Source: Anaerolineales bacterium UBA2232 (GTDB taxonomy: Bacteria > Chloroflexota > Anaerolineae > UBA2200). Taken from it: a stretch of DNA of 10,862 nt. How positions within the stretch are numbered: position 1 is the stretch's first letter; the number at the start of each line of letters is the position of its first letter. Position numbers and translations under genes: made by a program. The DNA lies in NCBI GenBank assembly GCA_002348045.1, contig DDYO01000226.1, positions 1-10,862 of the forward strand, given 5' to 3'. Of this stretch, positions 1 to 10,862 are shown piece after piece. The notes under the pieces are model-generated. The model did not search any database, was not told the DNA's origin, and was given only the letters and a program-made list of their open reading frames with translations.

Positions 1-558
1 TTCGGCCACTGGTGGTTCGAAGGGGTCACCTGGCTAAAAGAGGTCCTGCGGCGCCTGGATAAGAGCGATGTGGTTGAGTTGAGCACCGCGGGCGACTATC
101 TGGAAGCCTATCCGCCCGAAGAGGTGATATCCCTGCCTGAGAGTTCGTGGGGACAGGGCGGCGGCCACTGGACCTGGCTCAACCCGGATACGGAGTGGAT
201 GTGGCCCTTGATTCACAACGCCGAATCCAGCATGGAGCGGTTAGTGGCGGCTCACCCTGCGGCAGAAGGTCCTTTGCGGGACGTGCTCAACCAGGCCGCC
301 CGGGAGCTCTTGCTCCTGGAGAGCAGCGACTGGCCTTTCCTCGTCAGCACGGGCCAGGCCAAGGAGTATGCCAGCGGCCGGTTCCAACAGCACATGGCGC
401 GCTTCAATCACCTGGTCTCTATTGTTGGCTCGGGAGCGGTGGACGACGCTTCTTTGAGCTTTCTGACCAACGTTGCCGACCTGGACAATCCTTTCCCCGG
501 TGTGGACTATCGGGTCTTTGCGTCCCGAGAGGTCGTGGCGCCGCCAGCTGGTCTGTAA
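1..558 (+). CDS. GH57/DUF1957 alpha-glucan enzyme (branching-enzyme type), C-terminal fragment
   Basis: Open from the first base in frame 1 to TAA at 556-558, so the N-terminal part lies outside the window; 185 residues are visible. The fragment opens with FGHWWFEG, the motif that in GH57 branching enzymes and DUF1957 proteins directly follows the catalytic Asp, which would be just off the edge. It then has ESSWGQGGGHWTWLN (around residue 48) and RELLLLESSDWPFLVSTGQA (around residue 96), both typical of the helical C-terminal part of this family. Family members cleave and re-form alpha-1,4/1,6 links in glycogen-like glucans in the cytoplasm. The next gene, 58 nt downstream, is a sugar-type binding lipoprotein, which fits carbohydrate metabolism. 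Amylase or glucanotransferase activity cannot be excluded without the catalytic domain. Confidence 0.85.
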   Translation, partial: FGHWWFEGVTWLKEVLRRLDKSDVVELSTAGDYLEAYPPEEVISLPESSWGQGGGHWTWLNPDTEWMWPLIHNAESSMERLVAAHPAAEGPLRDVLNQAARELLLLESSDWPFLVSTGQAKEYASGRFQQHMARFNHLVSIVGSGAVDDASLSFLTNVADLDNPFPGVDYRVFASREVVAPPAGL

Positions 559-566
559 CCGGGCTT

Positions 567-594
567 TGGCCGCGGCGCTGTCTCGCGCCAGCCA
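567..594 (+). other. imperfect GC-rich hairpin between the GH57 and binding-protein genes
   Basis: GGCGC (574-578) pairs with GCGCC (585-589) across a 6-nt loop. The stem is extended by TGGC/GCCA (567-570 with 591-594) across a small internal loop. There is no T-run after it, so it is not a standard intrinsic terminator. It may lower read-through or protect an mRNA end, or it may be chance in GC-rich DNA. Confidence 0.2.
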
Positions 595-616
595 GGTTCA
601 GTTCTGAGGAGGAGAG

Positions 617-1936
617 ATGCAGAGGTGGCTCTGTCTTTGGCTAGTGGTAGCGGTGGCCCTGGTATCCTGCGCCCGCGGGCCCACGCCAACCGTTGCGCCG
701 CAAATCCTGCCCACCGAAACCCCTGCGACCAAGCCCACGCCGGCAGTGCAGGCAGTCCAGATCACCCTGTGGGAACAGGAGGACGAGAGCGGGCGGACCA
801 GCGTGCTCTATCCCCTCATCGACGAGTTCATGAAGGAGAACCCCTACATACGGGTGGTGGCCCAGTCGTACCGTACTGAGGAGCTGCGCAGTCAGTTCCT
901 GACCGCTGCTCAGGAACAAGCTGTACCTGATGTGGTCCGCGGCCCCAACGATCTAGTCGGCGTCTTTGGGGCGACGGGCGCCTTGTTGCCCCTAGAGGAG
1001 ATGTTTGACCCACAGGACCTGGAGGCATTCTTCCCCGGAGTTCTGGCTGGGGCGACGTTAGCAGGCACCCTGTACGGCCTTCCCGACCGCTGCGGTGGGC
1101 ACCTGATGCTGGTCTACAACAAGAAGCTGCTGCCCACACCTCCGGTAACCACCGACGCGCTCATTGCGATGGCCCAGGCGGCCACGGATGCGGCGGCCGG
1201 AATCTGGGGACTGGCCTACAACACCCGGGAGCCGTTCTGGCTGGCGCCCTGGCTCATGGGTTTTGGCGGCGCGGTGCTCGATCCAGCCGACGACAGGCCC
1301 CGTCTCGACAGCCCGGCCATGGTGAATGCACTCCAATTTCTGTACGACCTCAGTGCTACGCACCAGGTCGTTCCCTCCGGCTGCGACTATGAGATGGCAC
1401 GTAGCCTCTTCGCCACAGGCAAAGCTGCCATGGTCATCGACGGGGATTGGTCCCTGAGTGGTTACGTTCAGGCGGGGATTGATGTGGGCACTGCTCCCCT
1501 GCCGCAGGTGACGCAGACCGGGCTCTGGCCCGCACCGCTGGTGGAGGGCCGCTATTTTATGGTGAGCCGGCAACTGGCTCCGGGTAGCCCCGAGTTCGAA
1601 GCAGTGCGTGACTTTGTCACCTTCATGACCAGCGAGAGCACCCAGCAGGTGTGGCTCGAGAAGCTAAAGAAACTGCCCTCCAACAAGGCGGTTGCCCAAT
1701 CCCCGATGATTCAACAGGATCCTCTCCTGGCGGGGGCAGCCGCTCAGTTACAGTACGCACGGGGCAGGCCGGCCTCTCCCCTCTTGGGCTGTTTCTGGGA
1801 CAGCGTGTACGGCAACCAGCAAGCAGTACTGGCGGGAACCCTCACTCCGCAGGATGCGGCGCGCACGATGCAGGAATCCGCCGAGCAGTGCGTCCAGTAC
1901 ATGCTGCAGGCGCCGCCCATGGAGAGTAAGCAGTAA
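617..1936 (+). CDS. ABC transporter sugar-type substrate-binding lipoprotein (family 1)
   Basis: A 439-residue extracellular solute-binding protein of the maltose/oligosaccharide type. Residues 1-17 form a lipoprotein signal peptide (MQR, hydrophobic LCLWLVVAVAL, lipobox LVSC) with Cys18 as the lipidated residue. A Thr/Pro/Ala-rich linker runs to about residue 46. The mature fold starts at VQITLWEQ; YGLPDRCGGHLMLVYNKKLL, then FATGKAAMVIDGDW near the middle, are typical of MalE-like proteins. It would sit on the outer face of the cytoplasmic membrane and deliver a sugar to a permease. The start is fixed by the GAGGAGGAG ribosome site at 606-614. It follows the GH57 gene by 58 nt, possibly in one operon, but no permease or ATPase gene is in the window. 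The substrate cannot be read from the sequence. Confidence 0.9.
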   Translation: MQRWLCLWLVVAVALVSCARGPTPTVAPQILPTETPATKPTPAVQAVQITLWEQEDESGRTSVLYPLIDEFMKENPYIRVVAQSYRTEELRSQFLTAAQEQAVPDVVRGPNDLVGVFGATGALLPLEEMFDPQDLEAFFPGVLAGATLAGTLYGLPDRCGGHLMLVYNKKLLPTPPVTTDALIAMAQAATDAAAGIWGLAYNTREPFWLAPWLMGFGGAVLDPADDRPRLDSPAMVNALQFLYDLSATHQVVPSGCDYEMARSLFATGKAAMVIDGDWSLSGYVQAGIDVGTAPLPQVTQTGLWPAPLVEGRYFMVSRQLAPGSPEFEAVRDFVTFMTSESTQQVWLEKLKKLPSNKAVAQSPMIQQDPLLAGAAAQLQYARGRPASPLLGCFWDSVYGNQQAVLAGTLTPQDAARTMQESAEQCVQYMLQAPPMESKQ

Positions 1937-2050
1937 CCTCCGTATGGTCCTCGCTACGACTAAGCGATGATTGGACTGCAGCCCCGCGGATAGGCACAAG
2001 GATCGTTCGGCCGAGGCCGGGGGTACGCTTCTGACTGGCGATCATTCAAT

Positions 2051-2060
2051 GAGGAGGAAA
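2051..2060 (+). promoter_or_regulatory. ribosome binding site deciding the aldolase start
   Basis: GAGGAGGAAA lies 9 nt before the ATG at 2070. It overlaps the alternative ATG at 2049, so it can only serve the downstream start. Confidence 0.75.
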
Positions 2061-2069
2061 CGACCAAAG

Positions 2070-2858
2070 ATGTTGGGCAACAGTATCTTTCGCGATGATG
2101 GTCGATCGGTGATCATCCCTATCGACCATGGCTTGAGTGGCCTGGTGCCGGGCTGGGAGCATCCCGGCGAGACCCTGGAGAAGTTAGTCGCCGGAAAACC
2201 AGATGCGGTCATGACCACCTATGGTAACCTGAAACGCTATCGGCATCTGCTGGAAGGCAAGGTGGCGATGCTGCTGCGCCTGGACACTGGGGCCAGCCCG
2301 TACTCCGTCCACGAGAGGCTGACCGACTGGCGGCTGCGCTACACCGTCGAGGACGCGGTCCGGTTGGGCTGCAAAGGGATCCTGCTCTTTGCTTGGTTCG
2401 GCGCTCCGTGCGAGATGGACAGCATCCAGATCTGCGCCGAGGTGGCAGCAGAGTGTGATCAGATGGGATTGGCTTGCGCCATCGAGACCTTTCCACTGCC
2501 GGGCCCCAAAATCCCCCAAGAGGACATCCTCCTTCCCAAACATGTGGCTACGGTGTGTCGCCTGGCCTACGAGTACGGGGCGGACATGATCAAGACCCAC
2601 TACACTGGCACCATCGAGGGGTTCAAGCAGGTCACCGATGTGGTACCGGTTCCCGTGATGATTGCTGGCGGAGCAAAGACAGAAACGGATCGTGAACTGC
2701 TGCAGACGGTGACAGAGATGTTGGCTGCTGGGGGTAAGGGCGTCTGGTGTGGCCGCAACACGTGGCAGCACAAGAATCCTACGGCGATGGTCAGGGCATT
2801 GGTGGACGTCATCCACAACGGAGCCAGTGTCGATGACGCACTGAAGCAACTAACGTAG
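2070..2858 (+). CDS. DhnA/LsrF-type class I aldolase
   Basis: A 262-residue TIM-barrel aldolase of the DeoC/LacD/FbaB group, about the usual family length. The ATG at 2070 is chosen because of the Shine-Dalgarno just upstream, and because the protein then begins with the usual short lead into IPIDHG (Asp19-His20). MIKTHYTG places the Schiff-base Lys at 175. MIAGGAK (197-203) and GVWCGRNTWQHKNP (from 224) match the phosphate-binding loops. Relatives include archaeal fructose-bisphosphate aldolase, 2-amino-3,7-dideoxy-hept-6-ulosonate synthase and LsrF, so the reaction is Schiff-base aldol or thiolase-like chemistry on a phosphorylated sugar, in the cytoplasm; the exact substrate is not determined. 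Where archaeal FBP aldolases have a YPRG-like motif with the acid/base Tyr, this protein reads TFPLPG (Phe141). A 133-nt gap with no clear promoter separates it from the binding-protein gene. Confidence 0.85.
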   Translation: MLGNSIFRDDGRSVIIPIDHGLSGLVPGWEHPGETLEKLVAGKPDAVMTTYGNLKRYRHLLEGKVAMLLRLDTGASPYSVHERLTDWRLRYTVEDAVRLGCKGILLFAWFGAPCEMDSIQICAEVAAECDQMGLACAIETFPLPGPKIPQEDILLPKHVATVCRLAYEYGADMIKTHYTGTIEGFKQVTDVVPVPVMIAGGAKTETDRELLQTVTEMLAAGGKGVWCGRNTWQHKNPTAMVRALVDVIHNGASVDDALKQLT

Positions 2859-2866
2859 TACATGGA

Positions 2867-2916
2867 GGAGGGTGCGAAAGGAGTAAGGGGTGGTGCCTTG
2901 GACCGCCTTTCCCTCC
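2867..2916 (+). other. imperfect stem-loop between the aldolase and TIGR04076 genes
   Basis: GGAGGG (2867-2872) pairs with CCCTCC (2911-2916), AAA (2877-2879) with TTT (2908-2910), and GGTGGT (2889-2894) with ACCGCC (2902-2907, one G-T pair). Bulges lie between the three stems. No U-tract follows. It is a purine/pyrimidine-skewed spacer that could fold in the mRNA; function unknown. Confidence 0.25.
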
Positions 2917-2960
2917 GCGCCCCTCCCTACCTTGAAAGGTCTGCCCATATCATGTGCCTG

Positions 2961-2970
2961 AGGAGGAGGA
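2961..2970 (+). promoter_or_regulatory. ribosome binding site deciding the TIGR04076 gene start
   Basis: AGGAGGAGGA ends 4 nt before the ATG at 2975, with its GGAGG core a few bases farther back. It lies inside the longer reading frame that starts at 2954, so 2975 is the likelier start. The same CTGAGGAGGA string precedes the binding-protein gene at 605-613. Confidence 0.7.
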
Positions 2971-2974
2971 AACA

Positions 2975-3280
2975 ATGGCTGGAAATCCCGTGAGGATCAC
3001 TGTTCTAAAGAGGCTCTCCAATCCTGACCTGATTGACCGCTACGGGGTGAACGTGGTAGCCCAGTGTGGCGTCATGAAAGATGGACAACAGTTCATCTCC
3101 GAAGGACTGAAGATACCCGATGGTTTCTGCGCCTGGGCGTGGGCCGACATTCAGAGGGATGCGACCGTCTTGGCCCTGGGTGGGAATTTCCCCTGGATCA
3201 ATGAAGAAGGGGTGACCATCGCCTGTTGTACTGACGGCCTTCGGCCCGTGGTGTTCAAGCTGGAGAGGATCACACCCTAG
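2975..3280 (+). CDS. TIGR04076-family small protein
   Basis: A 101-residue protein of unknown biochemical role, recognised from its whole pattern: an opening RITVLKR, then DGFCAWAWADIQRD (49-62), GGNFPW (69-74) and the near-invariant end CCTDGLRPVVFKLERI (84-99). These are hallmarks of the TIGR04076 family found in anaerobic and thermophilic bacteria. Cysteines are at 31, 52, 84 and 85; the C52 and C84-C85 positions lie in the conserved blocks and could bind metal or form disulfides, which is inference only. There is no signal peptide or membrane segment, so it is probably cytoplasmic. It is the last + strand gene before the convergent junction, 116 nt after the aldolase. No function should be assumed. 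Confidence 0.85.
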   Translation: MAGNPVRITVLKRLSNPDLIDRYGVNVVAQCGVMKDGQQFISEGLKIPDGFCAWAWADIQRDATVLALGGNFPWINEEGVTIACCTDGLRPVVFKLERITP

Positions 3281-3381: not shown

Positions 3382-4149
3382 TCAGCTTCCCTCCTCAAGC
3401 GCTGAGGATGCCGCAGGTCGTTGCTGCCAGGCCTCGTACAGGGCGATGGATCCAGCTACCGACGCGTTCAAGGAATTGATCTGACCTCTCATGGGCAGCT
3501 CAATGAGCAGGTCGCAATGCTCGCTGACCAGACGGCCCAACCCCTGGCCCTCGCTGCCCACCACCAGCGCCAGGGGCATGTTCAGGTCTACTTCGCGATA
3601 GTTCCGCGCTGCAGGCCGCTGATCGAGGCCCACCACCCAGAGTCCTGCCTTCTTGAGGTCTTCCATCGATCGCACCAGGTTCGTAACCTGGGCGATCAGA
3701 AGGTGCTCTACTGCCCCCGATGAAGAGTTGCTCACCGCTGGAGTGATTTGTACGGCGTGGTGACGGGGGATCAGCACTCCATGGACTCCGACAGCCTCCG
3801 CCGTCCGCAAGAGCGTACCGAGGTTCTGTGGGTCCTGCAGGCAATCGAGCAGTAGCAGCAAGGGAGGTTCCTGGCGCTGGCTTGCCAACTTGAGCATCGC
3901 ATCGGTTTCCCCATAAGGGTATGGTGCGGCCTGGGCGGCCACTCCCTGGTGGTTGACCGCGCCAAGGGATTCCAGTTGCCGGCGATCGACGCGATGAACC
4001 ACAACACCGCGCTCAGCGGCAAGGGACAAGATGCGTTCGATGGGCCCACGATCGCGAGCTCCTTCGGCGAGGAGGATCTGATCGACCTTCCGGCGTCCCG
4101 CTGCCAGGGCTTCCGCCACCGCATTCCTTCCGTAGAGCATTTCCCACAT
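3382..4149 (-). CDS. rlmB: 23S rRNA (guanosine-2'-O-)-methyltransferase, RlmB/TrmH (SpoU) family
   Basis: A 255-residue SPOUT-fold methyltransferase that uses S-adenosylmethionine to methylate a ribose 2'-OH; by family and gene order the target is probably the 23S rRNA peptidyl-transferase region (G2251 in E. coli). The N-terminal substrate-binding part opens with LYGRNAVAEAL (6-16) and contains NHQGVAAQ. The three SpoU motifs are all visible: DPQNLGTLLRTAEAVG (106-121), LVVGSEGQGL (195-204) and LPMRGQINSLNASVA (218-232), which include the conserved Asn, Glu and Ser/Asn residues. The ATG at 4149 is preferred over TTG at 4155 because AAGGGAGAG at 4157-4165 is 7 nt from the ATG but abuts the TTG. 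It follows cysS by 84 nt, as in the classical cluster. Related TrmH-type targets such as tRNA remain possible. Confidence 0.92.
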   Translation of the reverse strand: MWEMLYGRNAVAEALAAGRRKVDQILLAEGARDRGPIERILSLAAERGVVVHRVDRRQLESLGAVNHQGVAAQAAPYPYGETDAMLKLASQRQEPPLLLLLDCLQDPQNLGTLLRTAEAVGVHGVLIPRHHAVQITPAVSNSSSGAVEHLLIAQVTNLVRSMEDLKKAGLWVVGLDQRPAARNYREVDLNMPLALVVGSEGQGLGRLVSEHCDLLIELPMRGQINSLNASVAGSIALYEAWQQRPAASSALEEGS

Positions 4150-4156
4150 GTTCAAT

Positions 4157-4233: not shown

Positions 4234-5637
4234 CTAACGCAGGGTGTACTTCCAGATCGTGCCTTCCGCGCCATCTTCCAGCACCACACCTAGGTCGACC
4301 AAACGATCACGGATGCTGTCGGCCAGCGCCCACTGCTTCGCCTCGCGCAGTTGCGTACGCACCTCAACCAGCAGAGCGATGAACGGTTCAGCCGCGGACG
4401 GCCCGGCAGCCCCCTTGAGCGTTAGTCCGAGGACATGGACCATGTCCCGCAAGACACCCTGGGCATATGCCAACTCTGGCTCGTTCGTCCCACTGTCACG
4501 GGACTGGTTGATGATCCTCGCCAGGTCATAGACCTGAGCGATGGCTCGTGAGGTGTTAAAGTCGTCATCCATCGCCGTGACAAACTCGTCGCGAGCGGCA
4601 TCGGCCTGGCCCGATAGGACATCGCCGGGGTTGGTCTGTGGCGCGTCGACAAAACCCCGCAGGGCGACCCGCAGTCGTTCAGCGCCACGCTCGGCGGCGG
4701 ACACATTGTCTTCCCTCCAGGTCAGAGGGCTGCGGTAGTGGGAGGAAAGGATGAACAGCCGGATGGCGTCGGCGCTGTGCGCGGCCAGGGCATCCTGGAT
4801 GCTGATGACGTTGCCCAGATGACGGGTCATCTTCTCGTCTTCTTCCCGCAATCTCAACAGGCTGTTGTGGACCCAGTACTTGACGAACGGCGACTTGCCA
4901 GTAAAGGCCTCGGACTGGGCGATTTCATTCTCGTGGTGCGGGAAAATAACATCGCCGCCACCGCCGTGGATGTCCAGCTGCTCACCCAGGAACTCGATGG
5001 ACATGGCGGAGCATTCGATGTGCCAGCCCGGTCGGCCCTTGCCCCACGGGCTGTCCCAGGAAGGTTCGCCCTCTTTGGCCGCTTTCCACAGTGCAAAGTC
5101 CATTGGGTGCTCTTTGCGCTCGTCAATCTCGATACGTGCGCCGGCCTCCATTTGGTCCAGGTTACGCTTGGAGAGGCTGCCATAGTTCGGGAACTTGCTG
5201 ACCCTGAAGTAAACGTCACCGTCGACCTCATAGGCATGGCCTTTGGCGATCAAGGTCTCCACAATCTCGATGATTTTGGGAATGGACTCGGTGGCGCGGG
5301 GGTGAAGGTCAGAACGCTCGATGTTCAGGGCGTCCATCTCGGCAAAGAAGCGGGCAATGTATCGGTCTGCAAGCTCCTTGATGGTGATCCCTTGGGCACG
5401 CGCTGTCTCCATGATCCGATCTTCGATGTCTGTAAAGTTCTGCACGCTGCGGACGCGATAGCCGCGGTACTTTAAGTAGCGCTTGATGGTATCAAAAATG
5501 ATGTAGGACATGGCATGTCCAACGTGAGCTGGTCCGTATAGATTGGGACCGCACACGTACATCTTGACTTCGCCTGGCACGAGGGGTACAAAGTCTTCTT
5601 TTTGACGCGTGAGGGTATTAAAGACCCTGAGTGACAT
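4234..5637 (-). CDS. cysS: cysteinyl-tRNA synthetase
   Basis: Class I aminoacyl-tRNA synthetase, 467 residues, about the normal length; charges tRNA-Cys with cysteine in the cytoplasm. The start FNTLTRQKEDF is the classical CysRS opening. The four zinc ligands are present (Cys29, Cys209, His234, Glu238, matching E. coli C28/C209/H234/E238), as are WHIECSAMS (205-213) and GGGGDVIFPHHENE. The HIGH motif is HVGH (38-41) within PNLYGPAHVGH, and the KMSKS position reads KMTRH (269-273) in KMTRHLGN; both contexts are unusual. The C-terminal helical domain ends with the anticodon-region pattern WALADSIRDRLVDLGVVLED. The ATG at 5637 is supported by GAGGAG 9 nt upstream; the open frame continues 41 codons farther but looks non-coding. 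A repeat-rich leader precedes the gene. Confidence 0.95.
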   Translation of the reverse strand: MSLRVFNTLTRQKEDFVPLVPGEVKMYVCGPNLYGPAHVGHAMSYIIFDTIKRYLKYRGYRVRSVQNFTDIEDRIMETARAQGITIKELADRYIARFFAEMDALNIERSDLHPRATESIPKIIEIVETLIAKGHAYEVDGDVYFRVSKFPNYGSLSKRNLDQMEAGARIEIDERKEHPMDFALWKAAKEGEPSWDSPWGKGRPGWHIECSAMSIEFLGEQLDIHGGGGDVIFPHHENEIAQSEAFTGKSPFVKYWVHNSLLRLREEDEKMTRHLGNVISIQDALAAHSADAIRLFILSSHYRSPLTWREDNVSAAERGAERLRVALRGFVDAPQTNPGDVLSGQADAARDEFVTAMDDDFNTSRAIAQVYDLARIINQSRDSGTNEPELAYAQGVLRDMVHVLGLTLKGAAGPSAAEPFIALLVEVRTQLREAKQWALADSIRDRLVDLGVVLEDGAEGTIWKYTLR

Positions 5638-5646
5638 GGTGACGTT

Positions 5647-5653
5647 CTCCTCT
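5647..5653 (-). promoter_or_regulatory. ribosome binding site of cysS
   Basis: AGAGGAG on the - strand, 9 nt before the ATG at 5637. It supports this start over the in-frame codon at 5760. Confidence 0.7.
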
Positions 5654-5680
5654 ACAATGCGGTGTCGGGCGGTTGATCCA

Positions 5681-5713
5681 GGGACACTACGCAGGCTAGT
5701 GTCCCACGGGACA
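5681..5713 (-). repeat. three-armed inverted repeat in the cysS leader
   Basis: GGGACACTA (5681-5689) and TAGTGTCCC (5697-5705) form a perfect 9-bp stem with a 7-nt loop. The second arm can pair instead with GGGACA (5708-5713), making the 14-nt palindrome TGTCCCACGGGACA. On the - strand the arms come in the order TGTCCC, GGGACACTA, TAGTGTCCC, so two structures are mutually exclusive. No U-tract follows. It lies between the kinase-like gene's stop and the cysS start. It could be an operator, a leader switch or a weak terminator. Confidence 0.5.
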
Positions 5714-5799
5714 GATACAGAGGGCACCTGGGCAGCGGAGCAAGATGATCGCGGCGACAATCAAGGTGTCGGGTAGCATCTGGTTCAACCTGATCCTCT

Positions 5800-6507
5800 T
5801 CATGCCCCGCGCTTCCCGTCGGAAGTCACCCGCTGTACCAGCGCCATTGCGACAAGCTGGATGCACGTTTGGATGGACAACCTTCCCGTGTTGAGCACAA
5901 AGCTATACAGATGGGGGTCCAGCCAGTTTACGCCATAGTAGCGCCGCATATAGTCCGAACGAGCCCGGTCACTGGAGACGATGCGCTGAGAGGCTTCGCG
6001 CTGACCGATGCCGAGGGTGCGCATTAACTTTTCCACCCTGAGGGCCATGGGCGCGATGACCTGGACATGCAGTGCTTCGGGATGATCCTTCAGTACGACC
6101 TGGCTTCCTCGGCCGATGATCAGGACATTCCCTTGCGCCGCCATGTTGAGGATTACCATTCCGACAATGCGGACATAGTCCTCCATGGCCACGCTCATGA
6201 GGGGCATGGCAGGCGTAAAGATACCGCGGGTTGAGATGTTGATAGAGGTAACCAGCTCCCGCCTGCGAAGCTCTTTGGGGCTGGGAATCGCTGGAGAAGC
6301 CTTGAGAGCGTTCAGGATCTGCTCCATCAGGCCACGACGTCCCTCGTAAGTCAGATCATGGAGGGCCAGCTCTGGTACACCGGCTTCCGAGGCAGCGCGA
6401 TCGATGGTTTCGCCATCGATCAGGCGCAGCCCTAGAGGCTTGGCCACACCACAGGCAATCTCGGCGCCGCCAGCGCCCAGCTGTCTAGAGATAGTGACTA
6501 CTGGCAT
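5800..6507 (-). CDS. cytidylate-kinase-like family protein
   Basis: A 235-residue P-loop protein of the cytidylate-kinase-like (Cytidylate_kin2) family. The start VVTISRQLGAGGAEIA (3-18) is the characteristic glycine-rich nucleotide loop of this group, which lacks the canonical GK[ST]. LGLRLIDGETIDRAASEAGV (26-45) follows, then NVLIIGRGSQVVLKDHPEAL (127-146) and an Arg-rich lid-like stretch (DRARSDYMRRYYG, 180-192), which in NMP kinases contacts phosphates. Cytoplasmic; phosphoryl transfer is likely but the substrate is unknown, and it should not be equated with Cmk. Its ATG comes 4 nt after the stop of the PIN/TRAM gene, with GGAAGG spanning that stop region as ribosome site, so the two are probably translationally coupled. 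It occupies the place where ispD and ispF stand in Firmicutes. Confidence 0.8.
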   Translation of the reverse strand: MPVVTISRQLGAGGAEIACGVAKPLGLRLIDGETIDRAASEAGVPELALHDLTYEGRRGLMEQILNALKASPAIPSPKELRRRELVTSINISTRGIFTPAMPLMSVAMEDYVRIVGMVILNMAAQGNVLIIGRGSQVVLKDHPEALHVQVIAPMALRVEKLMRTLGIGQREASQRIVSSDRARSDYMRRYYGVNWLDPHLYSFVLNTGRLSIQTCIQLVAMALVQRVTSDGKRGA

Positions 6508-6511
6508 CGGG

Positions 6512-7618
6512 TTACCTTCCGTTGGGCAGGTCTGAACGGCCTCCGCGGTTGCTCAGTTGGGCAAAGATCATGCGTCCCGCCACGGTCTGCAGCACGCGGG
6601 TGACCATCACGTCTACTGTCTGGCCAATGTGGCGACGGCCATCCTCAATCACGACCATAGTACCGTCGTCGAGGTAACCCACGCCCTGGCCGAGCTCTTT
6701 GCCCTCCTGCAGAACGTGCAGGGTGACCGTCTCACCTGGGAGGACCACCGCCTTGACTGCATTAGCCAGCTCATTGATGTTCAACACCGTTATGCCCTGC
6801 AACTCGGCGACACGGTTCAGATTATAGTCGTTGGTGATGATGGGGCAGCCCAGTTCTTTGGCCAACCGGACGAGTTTGTCGTCTACCTCTCGTGTGCCAT
6901 TGACGTCCATCTCAACGATGCGGATCGGAACGAGGGATTCCTTTTGCAGCTTGTTCAGCATGTCCAGACCACGGCGCCCACGATTCCGGCGCAGCGAGTC
7001 AGGTGAGTCCGCAATGTGCTGCAGTTCATTCAACACGAAACGTGGAATCAGGATTGTTCCACTGATAAACCCCGTCTGACTGATATCTGAGATGCGACCA
7101 TCGATGATGACGCTGGTATCTACCAGAACTTGAACCTCTTTTGGGGGTGGCTTGTCTTTGAGTGAGCGAAGGCTCAAAGTGGTGAGTATCTCCCTTTCTC
7201 GCGTGACCATGATCGTTACCCCAAAGTAGCTACAGAGCATGGCAGCAACAAAGGGGAGAATGTCTCCTAGCGGCGATGGCAACATCGACAAGGGTAGAGA
7301 GAGCAAAGCTGAAACGATCAGGCCGATGACGAGGCCGGCCAATGATACTGCCAGGGTACGCACTGGTACCTGGCGAACTTTGTTGCGCAGCCAGAAGAAT
7401 GGCCGGGTCGTAAGATGAGGTGTTATGAAGAAGCCTAAGACTCCTCCCGCAGCACCCAGGACGTAGGGCAGCACGGCAACGAAAGGTTCACCCAGAACCC
7501 GAATGATGCTGCGGAGATAGGCGGGCTGAGCCTGACTGCTGATCGCGAAACCAAAACGCCAACTGATAAAACCAATGATGAAAGCACCGATAATTCGTGC
7601 AATGAGTTCTATGTACAC
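6512..7618 (-). CDS. membrane-anchored PIN/TRAM domain protein (YacL type)
   Basis: A 368-residue protein from a GTG start, the usual YacL length. Four hydrophobic segments lie at about 4-22, 45-65, 88-110 and 118-138. A PIN nuclease domain follows from about 163: LVDTSVIIDGR gives Asp167 and Asp173, VLNEL gives Glu198, EVDDKLV gives Asp246/247, and TNDYNLNRVA gives Asp264, so the acidic metal site looks complete. A TRAM domain, often RNA-binding, covers about 288-352 (LPGETVTLHVLQEGKELGQG). A membrane-tethered ribonuclease role is inference. The GTG at 7618 is chosen because GAGGAGA (7626-7632) lies 7 nt upstream; the frame stays open to 7822 but those residues lack family features. It follows radA as in Bacillus, but after a 361-nt leader with its own promoter and an internal terminator-like hairpin. 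Confidence 0.9.
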   Translation of the reverse strand: MYIELIARIIGAFIIGFISWRFGFAISSQAQPAYLRSIIRVLGEPFVAVLPYVLGAAGGVLGFFITPHLTTRPFFWLRNKVRQVPVRTLAVSLAGLVIGLIVSALLSLPLSMLPSPLGDILPFVAAMLCSYFGVTIMVTREREILTTLSLRSLKDKPPPKEVQVLVDTSVIIDGRISDISQTGFISGTILIPRFVLNELQHIADSPDSLRRNRGRRGLDMLNKLQKESLVPIRIVEMDVNGTREVDDKLVRLAKELGCPIITNDYNLNRVAELQGITVLNINELANAVKAVVLPGETVTLHVLQEGKELGQGVGYLDDGTMVVIEDGRRHIGQTVDVMVTRVLQTVAGRMIFAQLSNRGGRSDLPNGR

Positions 7619-7625
7619 GGAAATT

Positions 7626-7632
7626 TCTCCTC
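7626..7632 (-). promoter_or_regulatory. ribosome binding site deciding the GTG start of the PIN/TRAM gene
   Basis: GAGGAGA on the - strand, 7 nt before GTG at 7618. No comparable site precedes the upstream in-frame starts. Confidence 0.75.
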
Positions 7633-7738
7633 GTGTTTGGTCTTCTCGTAAACTACCTAGATGGGGCGCATTGCAGGCTGATGCGGCCCGCGCGCCTGAA
7701 ACCTCCTTTCTTGGCACATTGGTACTGAACCTGGGAAG

Positions 7739-7769
7739 AAAAAAGTGTGCACAATGGCGATGGCACACT
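7739..7769 (-). terminator. intrinsic terminator inside the leader of the PIN/TRAM gene
   Basis: On the - strand AGTGTGC (7769-7763) pairs with GCACACT (7750-7744) across a 12-nt loop, followed directly by a run of T (complement of six A at 7739-7744) and then CTT. The hairpin plus U-tract is the best terminator-like structure in the window. It lies downstream of the 7905-7933 promoter and about 120 nt before the GTG start, so it would stop both radA read-through and leader transcripts. Confidence 0.65.
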
Positions 7770-7898
7770 CTGGCACTGAGTCTATTCTGGACGCGCAGCA
7801 CGAACCAGAGGTCCTCAACCAAGGACTATACGGCTGTGCACTAGCTGTACAGGTGCAGCCGCCCCCAAACGCAATCATGCGGGCATCGCGTTCGAACT
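7739..7898 (-). ncRNA. candidate small RNA or attenuator leader upstream of the PIN/TRAM gene
   Basis: The predicted transcript begins about 7 nt past the -10 box (near 7898) and ends at the U-tract of the 7739-7769 hairpin, about 160 nt in all. On the way it can fold AACGC/GCGTT (7868-7892), GGC-TGCAC/GTGCA-GCC (7832-7860, 2-nt bulge, loop containing the palindrome CTGTACAG) and GTCCT/AGGAC (7811-7826, 6-nt loop). The segment 7834-7841 (GTGCACAG on the - strand) can instead pair with 7747-7754 (TTGTGCAC), part of the terminator's 3' arm, giving a possible antiterminator of 8 pairs including one G-U. There is no convincing reading frame with a ribosome site inside. I do not recognise a known family (not T-box, SRP RNA or tmRNA). 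Promoter and terminator are seen; the RNA itself is inferred. Confidence 0.45.
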
Positions 7899-7904
7899 AG
7901 TGCT

Positions 7905-7933
7905 ATACTATCACAAGCAGATGTAGTTGTCAA
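7905..7933 (-). promoter_or_regulatory. near-consensus sigma-70-type promoter between radA and the PIN/TRAM gene
   Basis: On the - strand TTGACA (7933-7928) and TAGTAT (7910-7905) are separated by exactly 17 nt, with TG one base before the -10 box (extended -10). The expected start is near 7898. It lies about 47 nt downstream of the radA stop, so the PIN/TRAM operon has its own promoter in addition to possible read-through from clpC-radA. Confidence 0.75.
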
Positions 7934-7979
7934 TGGGACTCTGCGACAACGCAGGGGACAATGGGAAGATTATGTCCAA

Positions 7980-9362
7980 CTAGTCGTCCGACCTGCCGTT
8001 CCCATGTCCCAGGGCAATGTCAAGGGCTTCACCCAATGACCGAGCATGAAGAACCTGCAAGCCCGCCACGGACGGTTTGCTGAACCGAGTCAACCTCGGC
8101 ACCACGCATCGCTTGAATCCCAGTTTGGAGGCTTCGTTCAAGCGGCGATCCAGATGCGCCACCGATCTCAGCTCACCGGAGAGTCCAATTTCACCCAGCA
8201 TCACGAAATCTTCTGGCACACTTGTGTTGCGCAGACTGGAGACAATGGCCGTGGCCACGGCCAGGTCGGCGGCAGGTTCATTGATGCGCAGTCCACCTAC
8301 CACGTTGACGAACACGTCCTGAGAGGACAGATTCAGCCGAATCCGTTTGGCCAGCACCGCCACAAGAAGCAAGAGTCGGTTGAAATCAATGCCGTTCGCT
8401 GTGCGCCGCGCGAGGCTCGTATGGGTTGTGGTCGTCAGCGCCTGAATCTCCACCAAAATGGGCCGTGTGCCTTCCATTGTGACCGCGACGACGGATCCGG
8501 TGGATCCACTCAGCCGCTCGGCAAGGAATGCCTCAGAGGGGTTGGTGATCTCTGCCAACCCTTTCTCCTGCATCTCGAATACGCCTACCTCGTTGGTTGA
8601 TCCAAAGCGGTTCTTGACACTGCGCAGGATTCGATACGAGTGGAACCGCTCGCCTTCTAAATAAAGAACAGTGTCCACCATGTGCTCTAACACGCGGGGA
8701 CCGGCGATGGCTCCTTCCTTGGTGACATGTCCCACCAGAAACATGGGCACACCCAACGACTTGGCCTGTCGAACCAGTGCTGCTGTGCACTCTCGTACCT
8801 GAGTGATACTCCCGGCCGAGGATTCGAGGTCGTCCGTTGAGACTGACTGGATCGAATCTACAACCACGAGCTGTGGCGCCATGCGCTCGATATGCCCGAT
8901 AATGTGGTCTAGTTTCGTCTCCGAAAGGATGAGGAGTTGGGGCTGGGCAATGCCGAGCCTTTCAGCTCTCAACTTGATCTGGTGCGAGGACTCTTCGCCC
9001 GAGATGTATAGGATTGACTGGCCCATCCCTGCCAAGAGGGCCGATATCTGCAGAAGCAGGGTGGACTTGCCGATTCCGGGGTCTCCCCCAATCAGCACCA
9101 CCGAACCGGGCACGATTCCCCCGCCCAGAGCCCGACTGAATTCCTCCATGGGCACAGGGATACGGACGAACCCATCGGATGGAATGTCGGCAATTGAGCG
9201 AGGTTCGTTGGAAGGCGTGGCGCGCGCGAGGCTTGCTGAACTGCGTTCTTCCACGGTCTCGACCAGCGTGTTCCACTGGTCGCATTCTGGACAACGCCCT
9301 GACCACCGGGGTGTGCTGTAGCCGCACTGTTGGCAGACGAACCGGGTCCTGGTCTTTGGCAA
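7980..9362 (-). CDS. radA: DNA repair protein RadA (Sms)
   Basis: A 460-residue RecA-like, hexameric DNA-branch-migration ATPase acting in homologous recombination, of normal length. An N-terminal C4 zinc finger is formed by Cys10/Cys13 and Cys24/Cys27 (CQQC, CPEC). Walker A is GGDPGIGKST (92-101), Walker B is LVVVDS (165-170), and the RadA signature KNRFG is at 250-254. A Lon-protease-like C-terminal domain follows from about 285 (FVNVVGGLRINEPAADLAVA, GEIGLSGELR). The start is TTG at 9362: the resulting PKTRTRFVCQQCG matches the family opening and no ATG is available. The first in-frame codon upstream that is not sense is the clpC stop itself, eight codons away, and the ribosome site (AAAGAG) is weak, so re-initiation after clpC is likely. 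The next gene is separated by a 361-nt leader. Confidence 0.95.
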   Translation of the reverse strand: MPKTRTRFVCQQCGYSTPRWSGRCPECDQWNTLVETVEERSSASLARATPSNEPRSIADIPSDGFVRIPVPMEEFSRALGGGIVPGSVVLIGGDPGIGKSTLLLQISALLAGMGQSILYISGEESSHQIKLRAERLGIAQPQLLILSETKLDHIIGHIERMAPQLVVVDSIQSVSTDDLESSAGSITQVRECTAALVRQAKSLGVPMFLVGHVTKEGAIAGPRVLEHMVDTVLYLEGERFHSYRILRSVKNRFGSTNEVGVFEMQEKGLAEITNPSEAFLAERLSGSTGSVVAVTMEGTRPILVEIQALTTTTHTSLARRTANGIDFNRLLLLVAVLAKRIRLNLSSQDVFVNVVGGLRINEPAADLAVATAIVSSLRNTSVPEDFVMLGEIGLSGELRSVAHLDRRLNEASKLGFKRCVVPRLTRFSKPSVAGLQVLHARSLGEALDIALGHGNGRSDD

Positions 9363-9383
9363 GCGGAATCTCTTTCTGCGGTT

Positions 9384-10862
9384 CTAACTAGCACACCCGG
9401 GCAGTATGGGGACGGCTATCTCGTCAGAGCCGCTACGCTCCTTCAAGCAAAGTTGAATCTCGTCATCAGCACGATCAATGAGGATTGTATCCCCCGGCTT
9501 GAATTTGCCTTCCAGCAAACCCTCGCACAAAGGATCCTCCACCAACTGCTGTACGGTTCGCCGCAACGGCCGAGCCCCGTATTGCGGCTCAAAGCCTTTG
9601 TCTGCCAGCAGGCTTCGGGCGTCGTCCGTCAATTCCAGTATCAGCTTTTGGTCCCTGACCCGGTCGCTTATCTCGGCAATCTTGAGATCAACGATCTGCT
9701 GAATTTGCTCTTTGGTCAGCGTACGGAAAACGATGACGCTGTCGATACGGTTGAGGAACTCGGGCCGAAAGCCCCGCTTCAACTCAGCCAATAGCTTGTC
9801 TTTCATCTTCTGATAGTTGTCTTCAGCCGTCTTGGCTTCATCCTTGGTCACCGCAAAGCCCAGGCTGGACTCCCGGTGGAGCAACTCTGCGCCGATATTG
9901 GAGGTCATGATGACGACGGTATTGCGGAAATCAACCTCACGTCCGCGAGCATCGGAGAGATGACCATCTTCCATGATCTGAAGCAAGATGTTAAAGGCTT
10001 CACTGTGAGCTTTTTCCACCTCATCGAAACAGACGACGCAGTAGGGCCGCCGACGAACGGCTTCGGTCAGCTGCCCTGCATCTTCGTACCCCACATAGCC
10101 TGGGGGAGCGCCGACCAGGCGAGCGACCGAGTGACGCTCCATGAACTCGGACATATCCAATTGCACCAGTGCGTCCTCGCTGCCGAACATGAACTCGGCC
10201 AAAGCCTTGGCCAGTTCAGTCTTGCCAACGCCTGTTGGGCCCAAGAACAGAAACGAACCGATGGGTCGCCGAGGGTCTTTCAGTCCAGCCCTGGCTCTCC
10301 GCACCGCCTTGGCCAGCGCGGTGAGTGCTTCATCCTGGCCAACAACGCGCTGGTGCAGGGCAGACTCCATGTTCAAGAGACGCGCGGTCTCTTCGCTGGC
10401 GAGTTGGGCAACAGGAACGCCTGTCCACATAGCAACGATCTCGGCAATGTCCTGCTCAGTGACCAGAGGCTCTGGAGTGCTGCCCTCCACGCTTTGCACC
10501 ACACGCAGTTGTTCGAGCCGTTTCTGCAATTCCTGTTCCTGATCCCGCAGCTCTGCGGCTGTATCGTATTGCCTTTCCTCGAGTGCCCGCTCCTTTGCTT
10601 GCTGGATCTGGCGGATTTGCACAAACAGATCCTTGAAGCTGGATCGCTGTGTGACCTTGAACGTGCGCACCCGCGATGAGGCCTCGTCGATCAGGTCAAT
10701 GGCTTTGTCGGGCAAAAAGCGATCAGAAACGTAGCGGGCCGACAGGTTGGCGGCCGCCACAAGGGCCTCATCGGTGATCTTGAGGCGATGATACTCCTCA
10801 TACCGTGAGCGTATCCCATGCAGAATCTCAATGGTTTCATCAATGGTTGGCTCATCCACCAT
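9384..10862 (-). CDS. clpC: ATP-dependent Clp protease ATP-binding subunit ClpC, C-terminal part
   Basis: The last 492 residues of a ClpC unfoldase; the N-terminal domain and most of AAA+ domain 1 lie beyond the right edge, and the ATG at the edge is internal. Visible in order: the end of D1 (SARYVSDRFLPDKAIDLIDE), the UVR/middle coiled-coil region (about 75-120 of the fragment, ERQYDTAAELRDQEQEL), and the whole D2 AAA+ module with Walker A GPTGVGKT (208-215), Walker B CVVCFDE (275-281), sensor 1 TSN (320-322) and sensor 2 GAR (429-431). LGF at 334-336 fits the ClpP-docking loop ([LIV]G[FL]), so it should feed substrates to ClpP. The UVR region separates it from ClpA/ClpB; in ClpC, adaptors such as MecA or McsB act there. 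Its TAG stop is 21 nt before radA, in the same frame. Confidence 0.95.
   Translation of the reverse strand: MVDEPTIDETIEILHGIRSRYEEYHRLKITDEALVAAANLSARYVSDRFLPDKAIDLIDEASSRVRTFKVTQRSSFKDLFVQIRQIQQAKERALEERQYDTAAELRDQEQELQKRLEQLRVVQSVEGSTPEPLVTEQDIAEIVAMWTGVPVAQLASEETARLLNMESALHQRVVGQDEALTALAKAVRRARAGLKDPRRPIGSFLFLGPTGVGKTELAKALAEFMFGSEDALVQLDMSEFMERHSVARLVGAPPGYVGYEDAGQLTEAVRRRPYCVVCFDEVEKAHSEAFNILLQIMEDGHLSDARGREVDFRNTVVIMTSNIGAELLHRESSLGFAVTKDEAKTAEDNYQKMKDKLLAELKRGFRPEFLNRIDSVIVFRTLTKEQIQQIVDLKIAEISDRVRDQKLILELTDDARSLLADKGFEPQYGARPLRRTVQQLVEDPLCEGLLEGKFKPGDTILIDRADDEIQLCLKERSGSDEIAVPILPGCAS

Follow-up and report, generated by a model that had tools for sequence, protein, structure and literature searches.

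A probable lineage-specific transcription-attenuation leader before yacL in Anaerolineales bacterium UBA2232 and its relatives

Transcription-attenuation leaders consist of a promoter, a leader and a terminator that precede the genes under control. The DNA upstream of yacL described here has the same anatomy, with a promoter upstream and a predicted terminator before the first gene, and over 39 leaders taken together, though not in that of the window alone, a pairing that competes with the terminator is favoured. Unlike the known leaders, it has no common leader peptide that we could see and no known sensor, and its stem is conserved in sequence. In Bacillota, the operons of cysS and other synthetases are often preceded by T-box leaders. 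The yacL unit likewise includes cysS, and its terminator stem, too, is conserved in sequence; unlike T-box leaders, however, it gives no match at the Rfam gathering threshold, and by eye no UGGN motif adjoins the terminator strand. A third relative is the STAB-SD of cry3A, which is reported to bind the 30S subunit and block RNase J1 (PMC4113751). Like STAB-SD as described there, the Shine-Dalgarno (SD)-like element found here would be a 5' UTR sequence that does not direct initiation; unlike it, our element lies downstream of a terminator hairpin and is degenerate in the window (AAAGGAGGTTT).

The window, that is, the whole stretch of 10,862 nt analysed here, had been given an initial annotation as either a small RNA gene or an attenuator. 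We consider it probable that the 361-nt gap before yacL serves the yacL-cmk-cysS-rlmB unit as a transcription-attenuation leader specific to its lineage. This half of the annotation gained support from the co-occurrence of promoter and terminator, from compensatory changes and from the lack of an Rfam family, whereas the small RNA gene did not. Our best reading is that the leader is of a known kind but carries a new, gene-specific stem; judged by its sequence, the element looks like a real, so far undescribed gene-control leader.

The gap between radA and yacL

The minus strand of the window carries, in order, a gene at 10862-9384 that we take, by eye, to be clpC, then radA (9362-7980), the gap, yacL, a cmk-like gene, cysS and an rlmB-type gene. 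The features of the leader and its unit are as follows.

7905..7933, minus strand: extended -10 sigma-70-type promoter, TTGACA-N17-TAGTAT, with a predicted start near 7898
7739..7898, minus strand: predicted short leader RNA of about 160 nt, inferred from promoter and terminator, if transcription stops there
7786..7894, minus strand: variable leader segment with four hairpins in the predicted fold, without excess over shuffles
7739..7770, minus strand: predicted intrinsic terminator, stem GAGUGUGC/GCACACUU plus U6, lineage-conserved (from folding and comparison)
7699..7709, minus strand: SD-like AAAGGAGGTTT, some 80 nt ahead of the yacL start and lacking its own start codon
7627..7632, minus strand: ribosome-binding site of yacL, GAGGAG, read from the sequence
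6512..7618, minus strand: yacL, encoding a protein with PIN and TRAM domains, start codon GTG at 7618
5800..6507, minus strand: cytidylate-kinase-like gene (PF13189), placed in the yacL unit by spacing
4234..5760, minus strand: cysS (PF01406, PF09190), placed in the yacL unit by spacing
3382..4155, minus strand: open reading frame, last of the yacL unit, presumably an rlmB-type gene (named by gene order and by eye)

The GTG start at 7618 is consistent with an alignment of 34 sequences and, given this start, the gap does span the 361 nt first ascribed to it (7619-7979). The true start of cysS probably lies inside the listed frame. YacL-type PIN/TRAM proteins are widespread (at least 7,999 candidates scored, all with E <= 0.001); among the matches listed, six relatives have a named source organism, and all six are Chloroflexi, Chloroflexota or Anaerolineae. 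A narrow literature search found nothing on YacL-type PIN/TRAM proteins, and a search of plasmid DNA gave no match. The plus strand at 70-3280 holds convergent genes for a branching-enzyme C-terminal domain, a solute-binding protein and a DeoC/LacD-type aldolase, together with a 108-aa frame without a Pfam match.

The near-ideal promoter of the initial annotation is indeed present on the minus strand: TTGACA at 7933-7928, a 17-nt spacer and TAGTAT at 7910-7905 with a TG extension. No other sigma-70-like site occurs on the two strands of 6000-10862. Shuffles of the scanned stretch contain on average 2.1 loose sigma-70-like sites, so the match to TTGACA/TAGTAT alone proves little.

The hairpin with a U-tract that had been noted past the promoter was found as well. 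It consists of GAGUGUGC, a 12-nt loop and GCACACUU at 7770-7743, counting an outer G-U pair, and runs into six U (7744-7739) followed by CUU, ending 120 nt before the yacL start. Our first hairpin scan missed it because the scan limited loops to 8 nt. The segment 7774-7730 folds at -12.9 kcal/mol (z -3.10) and beats 200 of 200 shuffles, while 7771-7746, with its outer pairs cut off, shows no excess (z -1.15). The further hairpins of the annotation fared less well. Four are predicted upstream of the terminator (7894-7866, 7862-7830, 7826-7811 and 7809-7786), but the whole leader is not clearly more structured than its shuffles (z -1.64 for 7730-7898 and -0.83 for 7619-7900).

Several known explanations were tried and rejected. 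Neither the window nor any of 20 related loci matched an Rfam 15 family at the gathering level, and a permissive search of 7600-7990 returned only SNORD66 (E 2.2, below its gathering score); by that test the leader is no known T-box or riboswitch, nor another Rfam RNA. A leader peptide was discarded on two grounds: the 73-aa minus-strand frame at 7878-7657 has no Pfam match, and related leaders share no ATG frame by eye. For the latter reason a Cys-codon attenuator serving cysS was dropped as well.

Promoter and terminator before yacL in relatives

A single window cannot settle what is due to chance, and we therefore collected yacL upstream regions from relatives: 80 loci from named genomes and 90 from the class of G001, in which 396 genomes were searched and 353 had a match. 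With repeats merged and the window added, the set comprises 163 distinct upstreams, none longer than 600 nt, from Chloroflexota and some Bacillota; L007, L031, L047, L056, L097 and L186 were dropped as too short. A set of 165 upstreams had contained two duplicates, and eight of 40 later stretches were already in it; the recount reported here excludes both.

A terminator with the stem sequence RRGUGURC/GYRCACYY, sought with one regular expression, occurs in 39 of the 163 upstreams, and an extended -10 promoter between -520 and -120 in 57; shuffles yielded none of either. In the 159 distinct upstreams that reach 350 nt, a terminator of 7 bp or more is found 60 times and the extended -10 promoter likewise 60 times. 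Both occur together within 350 nt in 25, the promoter coming first in 23. Five shuffled sets of these 350-nt upstreams gave two to eight terminators, no promoter and no pair in either order. Upstreams of other genes of the neighbourhood had terminators in six of 106 cases (radA 2/19, cmk 0/15, cysS 0/12, rlmB 4/60) and a promoter in none of the 106, an easy control, the majority of the genes being internal to operons. The pair of promoter and terminator is not an accident of this window.

Matches to the stem expression fade with distance, from 18 of the 29 best-ranked genomes of the class and 19 of 59 in the next set to two of 76 in the named-genome set and one of 32 new genomes of the later set, which held one further near-match. 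Two other small groups were searched as well and yielded no additional usable locus. In L009, L137, L142, L158 and L159 a second class of terminator, with GGTGAG/CTCACC-like stems, occupies the same place before yacL.

The six nearest genomes belong to one family (YacL 69-74%), and here conservation is complete for the promoter and partial for the terminator. The promoter is present in all six, its -10 box ending 299-472 nt before yacL. A terminator follows in G148, G129 and G165 and, in a weak form with a weak U-tract, in G057; G109 and G085 have the promoter with no terminator after it. Within the stretches examined, radA was not found upstream of yacL in five of the six.

These neighbourhoods bear on whether the gap harbours the gene of a trans-acting small RNA, for which a promoter-to-terminator unit of about 160 nt would be suitable. 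Of 44 loci that carry the element, 16 have radA as the upstream gene and three have clpC, 22 show neither within 600 nt, and three are too short to judge; ten of the 22 have over 1.2 kb of upstream sequence. The element thus accompanies yacL even where the upstream neighbour differs, as expected of a yacL leader and not of a small RNA tied to radA. The distance from promoter to hairpin ranges from 12 nt (L196) to over 200 nt, which also speaks against a small RNA gene. A DNA search with the window's gap, run without a positive control for this query, covered the seven genomes of the nearest order and found nothing; a conserved trans-acting stretch is accordingly not seen. We therefore set the small RNA gene aside as very improbable, and the yacL attenuation leader remains the preferred reading.

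A terminator stem kept before yacL

The initial annotation had named conserved structure as a check, and the terminator stem is in fact kept in related yacL upstreams, with some compensatory changes among its substitutions. We aligned 40 stems, 37 of them distinct, comprising 39 dereplicated elements of 44 plus L196; the variants L089, L091, L107 and L145, which the expression misses, are absent from this alignment. All 40 read RRGUGURC...GYRCACYY, with five letters invariant. Pairing in 99.7% of the cells is biased upward, as the expression demands letters on both strands. Two-sided changes occur in 23 cells against a shuffled mean of 4.9. Covariation reached 0.346 versus 0.239, a value matched by none of 500 shuffles, and slid versions reached at most 0.101; two weaker measures were unremarkable (26/500 and 98/500 shuffles). 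Related sequences are not independent in these statistics, nor in the duplex, swap and antiterminator statistics given below.

Searching 396 whole genomes with a more stringent pattern gave 18 sites in 17 genomes, and the reversed pattern gave three sites. Fifteen of the 18 lie directly before yacL, by coordinates or by reading. A terminator stem tied so closely to a single gene is unusual, as any stem will do for an ordinary terminator. Promoter, element order and terminator stem are conserved, the stem with compensatory changes.

The other three sites comprise one before lgt and after clpC, one that lies at the end of a contig and has the same promoter arrangement, and one that is unrelated. 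The first of these (L207, contig 141 of G123) is a near-identical leader standing before lgt instead of yacL. The sister genomes G077 and G142 have just one match each; L207 may therefore be a duplication or a chimeric assembly, and we gave it no weight.

Competing pairing and possible mechanisms

A switch implies that leaders pair with the terminator strands more than their shuffles do. We therefore penalised the terminator hairpin and compared the gain of the alternative fold with that in shuffled leaders. Across 39 leaders the mean z was -0.58 (combined z -3.60 if they were independent), and the alternative fold was the global optimum in eight of the 39. One group of clades shares a motif as its alternative strand, GUACCGG-N-GAGACAYC, located about 60-90 nt upstream. 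It pairs better with its own than with swapped terminators (p 0.0006-0.004 in 19 sequences; 0.004-0.013 in 14 after removal of near-duplicates; 0.08-0.12 in the eight-member clade alone), the own pairing ranking first in two of the 14. The register of this pairing differs between L108 and L110, which makes it weaker as covariation.

Other tests were less favourable. In a blind duplex test of the 39 leaders the 3' half of the terminator was not enriched (mean z +0.30) and its 5' half slightly so (mean z -0.62). RNAalifold, applied to nine leaders of one family, the row of L145 being shortened by its start estimate, recovered the terminator only. In L196 (G137) the hairpin starts 12 nt after the -10 box, leaving no room for an upstream antiterminator in that genome. 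For the leader of the window itself the gain does not stand out (z -0.30), and the GUACC motif was not recognised there. Antitermination is thus a supported lead for the family, unproven for this window. Most of the nine leaders L104, L108, L110, L113, L115, L134, L136, L145 and L010 also share the short stretches CCTAACTGCATAC, GGAGAGACACCCAAC and TTGCAATTGTAATT, strongly conserved in sequence and without predicted structure.

The ordinary gain in the window would suit a hairpin that acts as an insulator, ending readthrough from the upstream gene, here radA, while yacL would be expressed at a constant level, either through leakage or from a different promoter. The scan lists no terminator in the stretch from the end of radA (7980) to the promoter, so that polymerase running on from radA would reach this hairpin. 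An insulator, however, needs no conserved stem sequence, the strong promoter stands upstream of the terminator in those 23 of 159 distinct loci, and the promoter scan found no promoter-like site between terminator and yacL in the window. We judge insulation unlikely.

Under the preferred attenuation reading, RNA polymerase would start near 7898 from the strong extended -10 promoter, make a leader of about 160 nt and then meet an intrinsic terminator whose stem sequence appears to be under selection. Part of the polymerases would stop there and others continue into yacL. In several relatives, the upstream GUACCGG...GAGACAYC could pair with the terminator instead and let the polymerase through. 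We infer termination, its regulation, recognition of the hairpin by a factor and attenuation itself, in the sense of a stop/read-on switch.

As for the signal, the likeliest single candidate, doubtful as it is, would be the PIN/TRAM protein acting back on its own leader. This is our boldest reading; it derives from a stem kept in sequence before a gene that encodes an RNA-binding TRAM domain and a PIN nuclease domain. Specifically, we tentatively suggest, at low odds, that the RRGUGURC/GYRCACYY hairpin might be a recognition or cleavage site of YacL that sets the readthrough of its own operon. If true, this would be an autoregulatory RNase leader present in some of the Anaerolineae, and it would offer a first clue to the targets bound by YacL. 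A stem kept specifically before yacL is in any case a concrete, testable RNA candidate, and the leader would add a cis-regulatory RNA without an Rfam 15 family in the loci searched.

The hairpin and the SD element that lacks a start might instead mainly stabilise or process the mRNA, as a 5' barrier and by 30S binding in the manner of STAB-SD, with termination secondary. In the six closest genomes the element reads AAAGGAGGTGA or differs from it by one mismatch, at -75 to -88 in five and at -211 in G148, and in L196 the hairpin comes directly after the promoter. An upstream frame behind the element was rejected, as by eye starts and frames are not common to the relatives, which accords with a role other than initiation. 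Yet a hairpin plus U-run is what termination requires; retention of the U-run is not independent evidence either way, because every match to the expression contains it by construction. Moreover, the hairpin enclosing the SD-like element is weakly supported (mean z -0.83 over seven, combined -2.2, two sequences carrying the signal), and the window's AAAGGAGGTTT has two mismatches to AAAGGAGGTGA, not significant alone with 2.5 such matches expected by chance. A main role in mRNA stability or processing is therefore, in our estimate, very unlikely, and we retain attenuation as the preferred reading.

The two leaders of the nearest family without a terminator, L116 and L117 (G109 and G085), contain a long-range complement upstream of yacL, GCATCCGTAT with ATACGGATGC (in L117, GTACGGATGC). 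Its strands lie some 200 and 40 nt ahead of the yacL start and enclose the SD-like element, and the complement could act on translation.
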